A stretch of DNA of 64,000 nucleotides from Bacteroidota bacterium (GTDB taxonomy: Bacteria > Bacteroidota > Bacteroidia > Bacteroidales > JAGONC01). The position numbers were made by a program, and so were the translations under genes. Shown here in pieces: positions 9,910-15,914 of this stretch. The notes under the pieces were generated by a model. That model was not told the DNA's origin, made no database searches, and saw nothing but the letters and a program-made list of their open reading frames with translations. Position 1 is the first letter of the stretch. Each line of letters starts with the position of its first letter. Where the stretch lies: assembly GCA_022711405.1 (NCBI GenBank), contig JAKLFC010000001.1, positions 248,001 through 312,000 of the forward strand. The letters are read 5' to 3'.

Positions 9910-12900
9910 ATGAAAATAAAGAATTCCACCGGCCTTTCCGTTGAATTTCTGGAAAATGGCGCTATTAAAAGCATTGAAGCCAATCCCATCCGCATAAGTC
10001 TCAGACCGGCGACTCCTTTTTCATCGCACGGTGCAAATCTTTATCTCAGGAAACGGTCACAAAACATTGAATACAAAGCCCTTACTGGTCCTGCAAGCAA
10101 TAGCCGTTTCAGTGTACAGGACAATGTCTATTACGCTCAGGGAAGCTGGGAAGGTATTGATTATCAAATCACTCTGCACATATCAGATAAATGCATGAGC
10201 TGGTACTATATGGTCGATCTAACGAGCCGTAATGACGAAATGATCGAGCTGGACCTGATATGTGTGCAGGATGTGGGTCTAAAGCAAACTACTGATGGAC
10301 TGGTCAATGAATATTATGTCAGTCAGTATCTTGAGCGGCGTATCATGGAGAGTGAATCCTATGGCAAGGTCGTTTGCTGCCGTCAGAACATGAAAGAGCC
10401 GACCGGTCATCCCTGGCTGATGGTCGCATGCAGGAACGGAGCCACGGCTGCCAGCACGGATGGCATGCTGTTCTATGGTAAAACATGCCGTGAGACAGGG
10501 AAGCCGGAGGGCTTGCTCGCTGGGCTGTCTGGTGGCGAATATGCAGGAGAATCGTCTGTGATCGCCCTGCAGGAAAAACCATTCATGCTGGTTTCCCGGG
10601 AACATCACAGGAGCGTTTTTATTTTCACATACCTGGCTGACCATCCGCTCCCAACCTCTGCTATGGATATAGACCGGTTGCCTGATCTTTTGGCGGAAGT
10701 TGAAGAAACGGTTGCTGCTCCGTCAATGGGTCAATGGTTGGCACCCACCAGGAATCTGTTCAACACTTCTGCTTTTCTTCCTGTGGAGGATCTCAATGAA
10801 GGTGAATTAGTCGAGTTTTTTGGAAGCAACCGGAGGCATTCCGAAAAAGAAGGGAACCGGTTACTGTCTTTTTTCTGCCGGCAACACGATCATGTGGTAC
10901 TGCGGGAAAAGGAGATCATGGCCGACCGGCCTCATGGGCACATCATGCAGGCCAGGGCAGGATGTGTGCCGGACGAAAATATACTGTCTGCCACCTCGTT
11001 TGCAGCAGGAATCTTCAACTCACATCTGTCACAGGGGAACACCAATTTTAATGTTCTATTATCCATCTGCACAAGCCAGTTCAACCTGGGACTGGAAGCC
11101 GGGCAGAGGATCTTTGTGCACATCGGGGGAAAATATTATTTGCTGGGAGTTCCTTCTGCGTTCGAAATGGGCCTGAATCATTGCCGTTGGATCTATAAAT
11201 CCGGTGAATACTGCTTTCAGGTACGGACCTGGACGTCAAAGAGGGTTCCGCAGGTGAATACCGACTTTAAGGTGATCAGGGGAAAGCCTTTGGAACTGAT
11301 CCTCACCCATGATTTTGATCCTTTAAATGGATGGAAGGTGACTTCAGGTAGTACCAGCAGCGAATTTAAAGCCGCCCCTTCAAAAAGGAGCATGATCGCT
11401 TCCAAATTTCCAAGGGCACAATTCAGGATAGCGATCAACCCTCCTGGGTCAACCTGCAAGCCATATGGTGACGAGGCGTTGTATGAAGATCGAAACCATC
11501 ATGGCAGCACTTTGTTCGTGCTCAGGGTGGATCAGACATCTGATTTCTGCATGAGCTTTATTGGTGAAGTGTGTTCAGCACAGGATGCCATTAAGGTGGA
11601 AGATGGAGATAAGCAATGGCTTGCGGATTGCCAGGATGCCGGTTCTACCTGGAATGAACTCAGTTTAAACCTATTCCTGCATGGAGACCAGCCGGACATT
11701 GCTGCCGTGAGGGAGATACTGCCCTGGTATGGGATGAATGCGCTCACTCATTATTTAACCCCTTACGGGCTGGAACAATTCAGCGGGGCAGCCTGGGGAA
11801 CACGCGATGTGGCTCAGGGTCCGCTTGATCTGCTCCTGACCATGGGAAGGTATGAGGATGCACGGCAGGTACTGAAGATCATTTTTTCCAATCAGAATCC
11901 GGATGGAGGCTGGCCACAATGGTGGATGTTCGATCGTTACCAGCATATACGGGCCGACAGCTCCCATGGGGATATCTTTTACTGGTGCCTGATTGCCCTG
12001 GCAGACTATATCAAAGTCACCGGAGACATGTCCATTCTGGAAGAGGTACTGCCCTACTATTCAGGGAAAGAAAGCGATCAGGCTGAACGGACACCTCTCA
12101 GCGAACACGTTGAGCGCCTTATCCGCATGGTCATCCGCTCCTTCATTCCCGGAACTGCACTGGTACCATTCGATGGCGGCGACTGGAACGATTCCCTTCA
12201 GCCGTTCAGCAAAGAACTGGCTCAGCGCATGATCTCGAGCTGGACCGTGGAAATGAATTACCAGGCATTCAACGAGTATCTTCATGTGTATGAAAAGATG
12301 GGCAATGAAGGCAAAGCAGGGGAATTGCTGTCAATCTGTGAGGATATCAGGGCTGATTTCAATAAATTCCTGATCAGGGATGGGATTGTTGCCGGATACG
12401 GATTGGCGGAGGCGGATGGCAGTATCCACGTATTGCTGCACCCCTCAGACGGTAGAACCGGTATCCGCTACGGCATTTTACCAATGGAACGAGGTATTGT
12501 CAGCGGTATCTTCAGTCGCGAACAGGCTTTTTATCATCGGGAACTTATTGAAAATCATCTGAAAGGACCTGACGGAGCGCGGTTAATGGATCGACCGTTG
12601 AAATACAAAGGAGGAATCCAGGAAATTTTCCAGCGGGCGGAAAGCAGTACTCATTTTGGCCGGGAGATCGGGCTTATGTACGTACATGAACACATCCGTT
12701 ACGCAGAATCCCTGGCCCGTACCGGCGAGGCTGATGCCTTTGTGAAGGCACTCCGGCAGGCGATCCCGGTTGGGTACAGGGATGTTGTGCCCTGCGGCGA
12801 TATCCGTCAAGCCAACTGCTATTACAGCAGCTCCGATGTCGCCTTCCGGAATCGTTTTGAGGCTGATGATCGTTACGATGATGTCAAAGCCGGGAAAATA

Positions 12901-13254
12901 ATCCTTAGAGGCGGCTGGCGGGTATACTCCAGCGGTCCGGGTATTTATATCAGCCTGATCGTGACCGGGCTGCTGGGATTGAGGATTGGAGATGGGAATG
13001 TCATTATCGATCCTGTGATGCCGGATTCGCTGGATGGATTATCCGTTTCCATTGATTTTCTTGGCCGAAGGATCCGGTTCAACTATTCCGTCAAAGAGGG
13101 CAATTATAGTCCTAAAGCTATTTCAATCAATGGCACAGGCATCCACTTCACCTTGGAAGATAATCCCTTTCGTCAGGGTGGTGCGGTCATTGACAAGGAT
13201 CAGTTTACCGAGAAACTGGGACTGCAGGAAAATGTTATAGCGATACGGCTATAG
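9910..13254 (+). CDS. GH94 phosphorylase, probable 1,2-beta-oligoglucan phosphorylase
   Basis: A 1114-residue cytoplasmic protein (no signal peptide). Its length fits 1,2-beta-oligoglucan phosphorylases (about 1,100 residues) rather than cellobiose phosphorylases (about 800). The GH94 catalytic signature 'GDWND' is present, with D758-W-N-D761 at bases 12181-12192, after 'FDG'. A second family block is 'WGTRDVAQGPLDLLLTMGRY'. Such enzymes use phosphate to release alpha-glucose 1-phosphate from beta-1,2-glucooligosaccharides, which suits a bacterium importing them through the upstream carrier. Laminaribiose- or cellodextrin-type specificity cannot be strictly excluded, but GH144 neighbours make the beta-1,2 assignment likely. 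Confidence 0.85.
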   Translation: MKIKNSTGLSVEFLENGAIKSIEANPIRISLRPATPFSSHGANLYLRKRSQNIEYKALTGPASNSRFSVQDNVYYAQGSWEGIDYQITLHISDKCMSWYYMVDLTSRNDEMIELDLICVQDVGLKQTTDGLVNEYYVSQYLERRIMESESYGKVVCCRQNMKEPTGHPWLMVACRNGATAASTDGMLFYGKTCRETGKPEGLLAGLSGGEYAGESSVIALQEKPFMLVSREHHRSVFIFTYLADHPLPTSAMDIDRLPDLLAEVEETVAAPSMGQWLAPTRNLFNTSAFLPVEDLNEGELVEFFGSNRRHSEKEGNRLLSFFCRQHDHVVLREKEIMADRPHGHIMQARAGCVPDENILSATSFAAGIFNSHLSQGNTNFNVLLSICTSQFNLGLEAGQRIFVHIGGKYYLLGVPSAFEMGLNHCRWIYKSGEYCFQVRTWTSKRVPQVNTDFKVIRGKPLELILTHDFDPLNGWKVTSGSTSSEFKAAPSKRSMIASKFPRAQFRIAINPPGSTCKPYGDEALYEDRNHHGSTLFVLRVDQTSDFCMSFIGEVCSAQDAIKVEDGDKQWLADCQDAGSTWNELSLNLFLHGDQPDIAAVREILPWYGMNALTHYLTPYGLEQFSGAAWGTRDVAQGPLDLLLTMGRYEDARQVLKIIFSNQNPDGGWPQWWMFDRYQHIRADSSHGDIFYWCLIALADYIKVTGDMSILEEVLPYYSGKESDQAERTPLSEHVERLIRMVIRSFIPGTALVPFDGGDWNDSLQPFSKELAQRMISSWTVEMNYQAFNEYLHVYEKMGNEGKAGELLSICEDIRADFNKFLIRDGIVAGYGLAEADGSIHVLLHPSDGRTGIRYGILPMERGIVSGIFSREQAFYHRELIENHLKGPDGARLMDRPLKYKGGIQEIFQRAESSTHFGREIGLMYVHEHIRYAESLARTGEADAFVKALRQAIPVGYRDVVPCGDIRQANCYYSSSDVAFRNRFEADDRYDDVKAGKIILRGGWRVYSSGPGIYISLIVTGLLGLRIGDGNVIIDPVMPDSLDGLSVSIDFLGRRIRFNYSVKEGNYSPKAISINGTGIHFTLEDNPFRQGGAVIDKDQFTEKLGLQENVIAIRL

Positions 13255-13273
13255 GGAATTTTTAGCTATGTTA

Positions 13274-13340
13274 ATCCCCTACGGGGAATGTAATTTTTTG
13301 GTGATACCTATTTTCTACAAGACTAAAACCGCTACGCGGT
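13274..13340. repeat. Left outer palindromes (CCCC-TAC-GGGG and ACCGC-TAC-GCGGT)
   Basis: Two perfect short palindromes: TCCCC-TAC-GGGGA at 13275-13287 and ACCGC-TAC-GCGGT at 13328-13340. The bases between them (CTACAAGACTAAA) resemble the CTACAATACTAAA tag that precedes palindromes on the right side. Confidence 0.85.
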
Positions 13341-13354
13341 AATACATTAGGTTT

Positions 13355-13554
13355 GATTCCCCTCCCTTGCCCGTAGGGCATATAGTATTGTAGGTTGTTG
13401 TCCGGATTCCCCTCCCTTGCCCGTAGTGCATATAGTATTGTAGGATGTTGTCCGGATTCCCCTCCCTTGCCCGTAGGGCATATAGTATTGTAGGATGTTG
13501 TCCGGATTCCCCTCCCTTGCCCGTAGGGCATATAGTATTGTAGCAGGTTGTCCG
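13355..13554. repeat. Four tandem 50-bp units, each carrying TGCCC-GTA-GGGCA
   Basis: Units at 13355-13404, 13405-13454, 13455-13504 and 13505-13554 each begin GATTCCCCTCCC and end TTGTCCG, with few substitutions. Unit 2 has GTAGTGCA in place of GTAGGGCA, which breaks its stem. There are no unique spacers, so this is not a CRISPR array. Period 50 is not a multiple of three, so open frames across it are artefacts. Confidence 0.95.
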
Positions 13555-13566
13555 AATGATTCCAAT

Positions 13567-13579
13567 ACCCCGTAGGGGT
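13567..13579. repeat. Palindrome ACCCC-GTA-GGGGT abutting the transposase stop
   Basis: A perfect 13-base palindrome whose last base is part of the transposase stop codon (TTA on the plus strand at 13579-13581). It is the inner left member of the symmetric set; its inner right partner is at 14119-14131. Confidence 0.85.
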
Positions 13580-14049
13580 TAAACAATTCCCAAAAAATCA
13601 AACAAATAGCATTCATCAAATTCGATTGAATAATTCTTAAGGAATTGAATATACTCCGTTCTGAATGTTGATTTTTCATGATGCCTTTCCTGGTTTTGAA
13701 TATAAGCGTAAACAATTTCCAACTGCGATCTGCTGCAGGAAAAAGCCCCATATCCCTCCTGCCAGGCAAATTTTTCCTTGCAAAGTTTTTCTTTGTTAAT
13801 AAACAGAGAAGAATTTCTTTTAATGCCTTGCACAGTATCAGAGATTGAAATGGATGGATTTAATCCTATCAGGATGTGGACATGATCGGCTACACCATTG
13901 ACAATGATCGATTTGTGTTTCATTGTGGAGATAATACCGCTAATGTATTCGAATATTCTGCTTCTGAAGTCCTTGGTTAGTGCAGCATCCCTGCATTTGA
14001 CTGCAAAAACCAGGTGAACGTATAACTGGGTGTATGTTCCTGGTTTCAT
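13579..14049 (-). CDS. Y1 (HUH) transposase, REP-associated / IS200-like
   Basis: A 156-residue protein of the Transposase_17 (IS200/RAYT) family. It begins 'GTYTQLYVHLVFAVK', has the HUH metal-binding motif in 'ADHVHILIGL', and has a likely catalytic tyrosine in 'VYAYIQNQERHH'. These enzymes cut and join single-stranded DNA at hairpins. No accessory tnpB is present, and the gene is flanked on both sides by matched short palindromes, which fits a domesticated RAYT better than a free IS200. The reading frame is intact, so activity is possible. Confidence 0.88.
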   Translation of the reverse strand: MKPGTYTQLYVHLVFAVKCRDAALTKDFRSRIFEYISGIISTMKHKSIIVNGVADHVHILIGLNPSISISDTVQGIKRNSSLFINKEKLCKEKFAWQEGYGAFSCSRSQLEIVYAYIQNQERHHEKSTFRTEYIQFLKNYSIEFDECYLFDFLGIV

Positions 14050-14118
14050 GATATGTTTTTATTGTTAATACGGAAAGAAGCAAAATGTACCCGGTCAAAA
14101 TGAAATTTTTTTTGTTTA

Positions 14119-14275
14119 TCCCCTACGGGGAATTAAATGTTATCATTCGTATTATTCTACAATACTAAATGCCCTACGGGCAAAGGGATGGGATGGGGGA
14201 AATGGTAACTACAATACTTAATACCCTACGGGTAAATGGATGGAATGGAAAATATGGCTAAATGCCCTACGGGCA
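14119..14275. repeat. Right inner palindromes with TAC loop
   Basis: TCCCC-TAC-GGGGA at 14119-14131, TGCCC-TAC-GGGCA at 14170-14182, TACCC-TAC-GGGTA at 14222-14234 and TGCCC-TAC-GGGCA at 14263-14275. Two are preceded by CTACAATACT tags and three are followed by a G/A-rich tail (GGGATGGGATGG-like). These are complementary to the 50-bp units on the left. The change from GCCC/GGGC to ACCC/GGGT keeps pairing. Confidence 0.85.
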
Positions 14276-14319
14276 AATGGATGGGATGGGGGATAAAATC
14301 CCGTCATTTACTTGGAATT

Positions 14320-14387
14320 ACCGCGTAGCGGTTATACTATTGTAGACGAATGACGTATAAACAAAATGTTTCATTCCCCGTAGGGGA
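14320..14387. repeat. Right outer palindromes (ACCGC-GTA-GCGGT and TCCCC-GTA-GGGGA)
   Basis: Perfect palindromes at 14320-14332 and 14375-14387. They are the reverse complements, in mirrored order, of the left outer pair at 13275-13287 and 13328-13340. Confidence 0.85.
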
Positions 14388-14477
14388 TAAACCAATAATG
14401 ATCAATCGTTATTTTCGTATAAAGCCGTAATTTTAATGTTTCATTGCATCCCCTAAGACTATTACCACACATCGTAT

Positions 14478-15914
14478 ATGATTAAGATATTTAAAAAGAT
14501 CCTGATCACGGTCAACCTGGCATTTGTGATCTGCTTGTCGGTACATGCACAAAAGCATCTGGAAAGAACTGGAACCAGCGGCGATTCCATCCCTGTTACC
14601 GGTATCGTCTCCGGCATTCCCGATTCGTCCTTGCTGGATATCGTTCAACGCCAGACATTCCGTTATTTCTGGCATTATGCACATCCGGTCAGCGGCCTGG
14701 CCCGCGAGCGGAGCGATACCGTCCTGGCAGAACATTACTGGGATTACATTAATGAAGCCTGGGATGAACCGAATTTCAGCAAAACGCTTTTCGGACCTGA
14801 TGCCTGTGCGATCGGAGGAACCGGATTCGGTATCATGGCTACCATCGTGGCGGTGGAAAGAGGATGGATCGAAAGGGCTACTGCCGTACGCCGCCTTGTG
14901 CAGATTGCCGATTTTCTGGCCAACGCGGACTGCTTTCATGGCATCTATCCCCATTTCATGGACGGCCGAACCGGAAGAACCATCAAATTCGATCGCCTCG
15001 ACGATGCGGCGGACCTGGTGGAAACCTCCTACCTCCTGATGGGATTCCTGTGCGCCAGGGAATACTTTGATGCGGATTCACCGATCGAAGTATACCTTAG
15101 GAACCGGATCACCAAAATGTGGAATGTTGCCAACTGGAACTGGCATACCAACGGTGAAAAAAAACTTTACTGGCACTGGAGCCCCAACAACGGCTTCGAT
15201 ATGAACTTCCCTATCTGGGGATGGAACGAATGCCTGATTACGTATATCTTGGCAGCATCCTCTCCGTTTCATGCCATCTCTAAAGATGTATACGACGGAA
15301 GCTGGGTGGGGAGCAGCGGTTTTAAGAACGGAAGATCCTATTATGGTATCACTCTACCACTGGGCAACTACGATTGGGGAGGACCCCTGTTCTTTGAGCA
15401 TTATACGTTCATGGGCATTGATCCCAGGGACCTGAAGGACTCGCTGGGAATTGACTACTTTGAGCAGGTCCGCAGCCATACCCTGATCAACAGGGCCTAT
15501 TGCATCGATAATCCGAAAAACTACAAGGATTACGGCGAAAATTGCTGGGGGCTTACGGCAGGCGACAGTTACAAGGGTTATGTTGCTCATTGCCCGGAGG
15601 TGGACTTCGGGGTCATTCAACCCACAGCGGCACTATCCTCGTTTCCCTATGCTCCTGAATATTCGATGCAGGTGCTCAAACACTTCTATTTTGATCTTGG
15701 AGATAAGATCTGGAGCGAATACGGATTTGTCGATGGATTCAGTGAAACACACAACTGGTACGCGAAAAGCCACCTGGCGATTGACCAGGGCCCCATTGTG
15801 GTGATGATTGAGAACTACCGAACGGGTCTCCTGTGGGAACTTTTCATGCAGATCCCGGATATACAGAAGGGATTGATAAAGCTTGGTTTCGAAAGCCCAT
15901 GGATGAAAAAATAA
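14478..15914 (+). CDS. Secreted GH144-type beta-1,2-glucanase (single domain)
   Basis: A 478-residue protein with a Sec signal peptide (cleavage near 'SVHAQ') and one (alpha/alpha)6 barrel of the PF10091/GH144 family. Family blocks visible are 'YFWHYAHPVSGLARERS', 'IGGTGFGIMA', 'ADLVETSYLLMG' (E182, conserved in all complete copies here) and the C-terminal 'IDQGPIVVMIENYRTGLLWE'. Its size matches characterised single-domain enzymes that make sophorose or short beta-1,2-glucooligosaccharides. The next gene is a larger paralogue a few bases downstream, probably in one transcript. Whether it is endo- or exo-acting is not visible. Confidence 0.88.
   Translation: MIKIFKKILITVNLAFVICLSVHAQKHLERTGTSGDSIPVTGIVSGIPDSSLLDIVQRQTFRYFWHYAHPVSGLARERSDTVLAEHYWDYINEAWDEPNFSKTLFGPDACAIGGTGFGIMATIVAVERGWIERATAVRRLVQIADFLANADCFHGIYPHFMDGRTGRTIKFDRLDDAADLVETSYLLMGFLCAREYFDADSPIEVYLRNRITKMWNVANWNWHTNGEKKLYWHWSPNNGFDMNFPIWGWNECLITYILAASSPFHAISKDVYDGSWVGSSGFKNGRSYYGITLPLGNYDWGGPLFFEHYTFMGIDPRDLKDSLGIDYFEQVRSHTLINRAYCIDNPKNYKDYGENCWGLTAGDSYKGYVAHCPEVDFGVIQPTAALSSFPYAPEYSMQVLKHFYFDLGDKIWSEYGFVDGFSETHNWYAKSHLAIDQGPIVVMIENYRTGLLWELFMQIPDIQKGLIKLGFESPWMKK

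Follow-up and report, generated by a model that had tools for sequence, protein, structure and literature searches.

Hairpin arrays with a fixed YTAC position flank TnpAY1 subclass 1.2 genes and are candidate targets of the transposase

Introduction

In the window analysed here (the whole stretch of DNA, 64 kb in length), a gene for a Y1 HUH transposase (tnpA) lies in the middle of an array of short palindromes, and the order of the palindromes on its left is the mirror image of the order on its right. The locus raises the question of which family this transposase belongs to, whether the palindromes are its substrates, and what the mirror order reflects. In the original prediction it was read as a RAYT with its own substrate hairpins, in an unusual symmetric layout with a fixed loop. 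According to Quentin et al. 2018 (PMC6006769), TnpAY1 subclass 1.2, which is found in Bacteroidetes and Cyanobacteria, lacks REPs and, in general, IS200-type end structures.

Results

The window protein belongs with IS200/IS605-type TnpA, subclass 1.2

The tnpA open reading frame (13579-14049, minus strand) codes for a protein of 156 aa, which matched the Pfam family Y1_Tnp (PF01797) with an E-value of 2.5e-28 and scored above the cut-off of the NCBIfam IS200/IS605 model NF033573 (78.4 bits, cut-off 55). Its motifs, DHVH, WQ and YIQNQERHH, are the signature of subclass 1.2, and the Y---Q--HH motif was present in 83 of the 84 relatives collected. The structure of the protein was predicted with a mean pLDDT of 83.5; when this model was used in a structure search, IS608, ISDra2 and other IS200 transposases came first, the nearest solved folds being IS608 and ISDra2 TnpA bound to hairpin ends. 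By its motifs, NCBIfam score and fold, the window protein belongs with IS200/IS605-type TnpA, subclass 1.2. That it is instead a true RAYT/TnpAREP (class 2) with REP sequences is extremely improbable. The flanking hairpins, the dispersed inverted pairs and the gene-specific hairpin class described below are indeed REPtron-like, but the protein stays below the cut-off of the NCBIfam REP-associated model REP_Tyr_transpos (21.7 bits, cut-off 80), its tyrosine motif is YxxxQxxHH and not YxxNP, GTAG at the 5′ foot of the stem is not the rule, and the RAYT structure 4er8 ranked 30 in the structure search, after the IS200-type folds. RAYT membership, and with it the name given in the original prediction, was ruled out by motifs and models, and RAYTs were retained as an analogy of mechanism. 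TIRYTs resemble the window locus in having a Y1 gene within inverted repeats, but most of them belong to class 2.1, and they have GGGGWSAS repeats and a tail resembling a helix-turn-helix (Di Nocera et al. 2013, PMC3733652); membership was rejected, since the window protein has the class 1 motif and its repeats are CCCCTACGGGG hairpins.

Thirteen hairpins surround tnpA in mirror order

The array and tnpA are flanked by a glycoside-phosphorylase gene (9910-13254) and a glucoamylase-like gene (14478-15914). We found 13 hairpins in 13270-14392, 12 of which have a perfect 5-bp stem (starts at 13275, 13328, 13368, 13468, 13518, 13567, 14119, 14170, 14222, 14263, 14320 and 14375), and the 13th, at 13418 (TGCCC-GTA-GTGCA), has a single stem mismatch. 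All of them have a 3-nt loop that reads TAC on one strand and GTA on its complement, in agreement with the at least twelve palindromes of varied stem and TAC/GTA loop that had been predicted. The stem classes were labelled B (CCCC), C (CCGC) and A (GCCC, once ACCC), a prime denoting the reversed orientation, and all four stems that had been named as compensated changes are present.

The order along the locus is B C A′ A′ A′ A′ B′ (tnpA) B A A A C′ B′. Read from the outside inwards, the left side has CCCC, CCGC, four times GCCC and CCCC, and the right side has CCCC, CCGC, three times GCCC/ACCC and CCCC, with all orientations reversed relative to the left; the mirror order held, with four copies of the repeated class on the left versus three on the right. 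The left block (13269-13586) starts with an outer untagged hairpin B (TCCCC-TAC-GGGGA, 13275-13287, plus strand) and a hairpin C (13315-13340, plus strand) that consists of a CTAC tag at 13315-13318 and of the palindrome ACCGC-TAC-GCGGT at 13328-13340. These are followed by four 50-bp tandem repeats (13355-13554), each with one A′ hairpin and its tag on the minus strand: the first (13368-13393) is TGCCC-TAC-GGGCA with the tag CTACAATACT, the second (13418-13443) is the one with the stem mismatch and reads TGCCCGTAGTGCA on the plus strand, and the third and fourth lie at 13468-13493 and 13518-13543. The block ends with an inner untagged B′ (ACCCC-TAC-GGGGT on the minus strand, 13567-13579), which overlaps tnpA by one base, the last of its stop codon. 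The right block (14113-14392) has, on the plus strand, an inner untagged B (14119-14131), a tagged A (14157-14182, with CTAC at 14157-14160 and the hairpin at 14170-14182), a tagged A variant (TACCC-TAC-GGGTA with the tag CTACAATACT, 14209-14234) and an A without YTAC tag (14263-14275); on the minus strand a tagged C′ (ACCGC-TAC-GCGGT, 14320-14345) and an outer untagged B′ (14375-14387) complete it. The outermost 38 nt of the locus are 84% complementary. The flanks of tnpA carry 11 hairpins in 915 nt versus 0.25 expected from dinucleotide shuffles, and just scattered short TAC/GTA hairpins were found in the remainder of the window.

Hairpin arrays flank most related genes

Relatives were collected from 393 genomes of the same order, 195 of which had a match at 1e-20, together with 21 from named genomes. 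The cultured Flavobacterium ustbae T13 also carries a relative (locus L104). Hairpins with GC-rich 5-bp stems were then counted within 450 nt on each side of tnpA at 94 loci, a few of which are near-duplicates (the most obvious ones were removed before the later counts), and 373 were found versus 27.2 expected from dinucleotide-preserving shuffles. With this strict detector, at least three hairpins were present at 56 of the 94 loci, and hairpins lay on both sides of the gene at 42. The hairpin layout is the norm for this transposase subclass and not a local oddity, so that what had been taken for an unusual arrangement recurs around related transposases. The loop is fixed within the close lineage of the window, but among other lineages it varies (TAC, TTC, TAAC, TGC, TCC and others), and the stems vary too. 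Immediately upstream of one relative, a tnpA 68% identical to that of the window (locus L071, genome G046, contig C116), a 26-nt tandem array holds eight C′ hairpins.

The distal hairpins carry YTAC at a fixed distance

In 133 of 384 hairpins, YTAC (CTAC or TTAC) on the strand with the T-first loop started exactly 13 nt 5′ of the stem; the second most frequent YTAC offset was seen in 11 hairpins, and none of 500 shuffles gave more than 12 at a single offset. For GTAR on the same strand, the best offset (-3) accounted for just 15 of the 384. The hairpins with YTAC at -13 are the distal ones, and at least one tagged hairpin was present at 61 of the 80 hairpin-bearing loci when YTAT was counted too. 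The consensus of the tagged hairpins was YTA(C/T)(A/C)A...T...-stem, with T at -4 in 92%.

The pairing of the stems was analysed in several ways. When tags were sought irrespective of stems, 83 of the 170 were followed by a perfect 5-bp stem, versus about 0.2% by chance. With a genome pattern that left the stem free (S, i.e., C or G), 121 of the 123 matches listed were complementary (91 of 93 after the removal of duplicates), where independence of the two sides would give about one in eight. Among 34 diverse modules both sides had changed in 59 cells versus 12.4 in shuffles; these modules had been picked for perfect stems, and the tag-first and stem-free tests are the independent ones. The YTAC tag did not covary with the bases at the foot of the stem, so that guide pairing in the style of IS608 is unsupported here.

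The orientation of the hairpins, assigned from the loop, is tied to the gene. With tnpA read from left to right, the T-first loop was on the opposite strand in 46 hairpins versus 3 within 75 nt upstream of the gene, and on the same strand in 53 versus 6 within 75 nt downstream, and the preference flipped at distances of more than about 225 nt upstream and 150 nt downstream. As a check of orientation that does not depend on the loop, a T-first loop was found in 134 of the 149 hairpins having YTAC at -13. Of 113 hairpins in first position next to tnpA, 79 were untagged, and of 70 in second position, 49 were tagged; the spacing between neighbours was 48-56 nt in 118 of 197 pairs. Between neighbours on the T-loop strand, the step was from untagged to tagged in 64 cases, from tagged to tagged in 38, from untagged to untagged in 22, and from tagged to untagged in only 3. 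The recurrent layout, full or partial, is > >t <t < (tnpA) > >t <t <, where t marks the tagged hairpin, i.e., a gene between two self-inverted blocks, and the mirror order arises because tnpA sits between these blocks. An inner mirror was seen in 34 of the 69 loci with enough flank, and in 30 of the 69 at least one strand carried T-loop hairpins both to the left and to the right of tnpA; in 12 of these 30, both strands did.

Loop and stem-foot base follow the transposase phylogeny

A quick tree of 84 transposases required 26 changes of the loop class (shuffled mean 38, minimum 35) and 15 changes of the stem-foot base (shuffled mean 33, minimum 27). Loop and foot base thus follow the transposase phylogeny. 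In the single-contig genome G195, two tnpA genes adjoin different hairpin classes (TAC at locus L077, TTC at locus L121), and in the window genome (G000) each of the three remaining Y1 genes is likewise accompanied by hairpins, which are of other classes (loci L019, L020 and L021). Two of these (L019, contig C17:16708-17049, and L020, C17:20480-20818) are more distant Y1 genes related to subclass 1.2, 3.8 kb apart, and their flanking hairpins, CGGGC-TTYA-GCCCG, form another class.

These data bear on the idea that the hairpins are host elements, i.e., terminators, mRNA stabilisers or protein-binding sites, among which a transposase gene merely inserted. The window array does occupy the space between two genes, and hairpins occur in some genomes without a Y1 gene (see below), but the hairpin class tracks the transposase phylogeny, the two tnpA genes of G195 have different classes next to them, and the orientation is tied to the gene. 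In addition, an Rfam scan of 13000-14700 gave no family (two sub-threshold chance matches only), and no consistent run of T was seen after the hairpins in a position table. We regard a host origin as very improbable.

Dispersed copies, congeners and genomes lacking the gene

In the window genome the tagged pattern was matched 23 times, and 17 of these matches, in about nine clusters, lay outside the window locus. Further copies in the host genome, lacking tnpA, and pairing in opposite orientation, which the original prediction had proposed to look for, were therefore found. The clearest clusters are A′-B′-20 nt-B-C at C3:79.6k (where B′ is degenerate) and C3:103k, and C′-B′-B-A-A-A-A at C29:138.7k. 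Several dispersed copies (L216 and L218 in contigs C28 and C12 of G000, L205 and L206 in the congener G179) have, in place of the central hairpin pair, a single long palindrome, CCCCTCCCC-loop-GGGGAGGGG, which lies about 52 nt from a tagged hairpin. A second repeat, AAATTCCAAATTCCAGGATCCAAAGTCCAA... (about 55 nt), borders or lies next to several hairpin clusters and a tnpA of contig C17 (e.g., C3:79508-79565 and C3:79790-79847 of G000, locus L068); three congeners have about 76-94 matches to it per genome.

Among the 393 genomes, 36 had the tagged pattern, which detects the TAC class only, and a reversed control pattern gave almost nothing. A relative of the transposase was present in 30 of these 36 genomes versus 165 of the 357 others (Fisher p = 1.6e-5, kinship ignored), so that the hairpins are not equally frequent in genomes that lack it. 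Six hairpin-positive genomes had no close relative, and two of them (G048 and G312) had no Y1 gene at all, which indicates that the hairpins can outlast the enzyme. In the single-contig genome G312, six tagged GCCCC-TAC-GGGGC hairpins are spread over five sites (locus L221, C1:2077000-2078300).

At the site of the window locus, the congener G075 has B-A-...-C′-B′ without tnpA, and G179 has a decayed A...C′ remnant only. The half-block of G075 agrees with the right half-block of the window at 69 of 77 positions and with the left one at 53 of 79. The difference between G000 and G075 switches in hairpin B and not at YTAC, and excision at YTAC as its cause is unsupported. Loss of one block and tnpA by recombination between direct copies and gain of these sequences both fit, and given the switch at hairpin B, ordinary recombination between direct copies explains the difference equally well. 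At the C29 and C3:79k sites, congeners have the same gene without adjoining hairpins; no junction marking the exact boundary of insertion could be read from these two empty sites, where the surrounding order differs.

The locus could also be a decaying or atypical IS200/IS605 element, the hairpins being subterminal ends that were multiplied by slippage or local duplication and have no present function. In its favour are the IS200/IS605 score of the protein, the 50-bp tandem repeats and uneven copy numbers, which suggest slippage, and the stop codons present in several relatives of the window tnpA. Against this, the copies of tnpA within a genome are diverged and not near-identical (the window genome has four Y1 genes, the others being 46% and about 39% identical to the window tnpA), the arrays are symmetric and do not consist of a single left end and a single right end on the same strand, and the YTAC distance and the sequence of the blocks are conserved throughout the bacterial order and also outside it. 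We consider this explanation unlikely.

Discussion

The locus is quite probably a REPtron-like unit for TnpAY1 subclass 1.2, whose TnpA would bind folded hairpins of single-stranded DNA and probably nick at YTAC. The part of the original prediction that is well supported is that of a Y1 transposase with its own substrate hairpins, in that arrays flank most related genes, and the hairpins are almost certainly targets of TnpA. Binding, YTAC as the cut site, and movement are what we infer from the arrays, the position and polarity rules, the compensated pairing, the dispersed copies without tnpA, the presence or absence in congeners and the covariation with phylogeny, which were observed directly. 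TnpA is expected to bind the strand of the hairpins with the T-first loop once it is single-stranded, like IS608 and ISDra2 TnpA; in both, the T of the loop is contacted by TnpA (PMC8266576). On this strand, the half-block consists of an untagged B, about 25 nt, YTAC, 9 nt and a tagged A; the half-block and its inverted copy make up the full block, and tnpA between two such blocks gives the mirror order. Probably, TnpA acts like the IS200/IS605 enzymes, nicking 3′ of YTAC and joining strands in single-stranded DNA, and this would let hairpin units with or without tnpA copy, move, expand in tandem and be deleted.

The comparison with IS200/IS605 elements (IS608, ISDra2) extends to the TnpA fold, the catalytic residues and the combination of a hairpin with a tetranucleotide. 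IS608 inserts 3′ of TTAC (PMC5934647), which is one form of YTAC, and the position of YTAC here would fit a cut 3′ of the tetranucleotide near the left hairpin, as in that family. Unlike those elements, the loci described here have no single asymmetric left and right end, no tnpB next to the gene and no near-identical copies, and the mirrored arrays put modules on both strands. The most speculative part of our proposal is that the half-block resembles the circle joint of IS200/IS605 elements, the untagged hairpin upstream of YTAC corresponding to the right-end hairpin and the tagged one to the left-end hairpin. Should this analogy hold, either strand could carry a full pair of joints flanking tnpA, the gene being placed between self-inverted blocks, and it is conceivable, if rather doubtful, that two cuts at YTAC and rejoining regenerate the joint both in the chromosome and in a circle. 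We found no description of such a strand-symmetric, site-regenerating transposition of single strands.

With RAYTs and their REPtrons, the loci share a single-copy Y1 gene flanked by short palindromes, dispersed inverted pairs, and a palindrome class of its own for each gene. They differ in the class 1 protein, the lack of a GTAG foot, the 5-bp stems, the T-first loop, the YTAC 13 nt away and the two kinds of hairpins in fixed order. The copy numbers also differ: REPs linked to RAYTs occur in hundreds of copies, whereas the hairpins analysed here are low in number, in the tens. The system is thus REPtron-like in behaviour and IS200-like in protein, and a standard member of neither group. The sequences share with subclass 1.2 (PMC6006769) the motifs DH[VI]H, WQ and YxxxQxxHH, a length of about 150 aa, the occurrence in Bacteroidetes and the low number of diverged copies per genome; they depart from it in having, at most loci, hairpin arrays with a fixed YTAC position. 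The hairpins contradict a descriptive trait of the subclass (the lack of REPs or ends), and not its sequence definition. Later literature on REPs of subclass 1.2 was not found in a search that was thin on subscription papers and preprints.

For subclass 1.2, which was described in 2018 without IS ends or REPs, a candidate substrate with precise rules (a T-first loop, a 5-bp stem, YTAC at -13, and a fixed order of two kinds of hairpins) is now at hand. Dozens of natural variants, in which the loop and the foot base shift along the transposase tree, make the recognition of hairpins directly testable, and the hairpins of subclass 1.2 provide a point of comparison for how REP systems arose from IS200-like elements.
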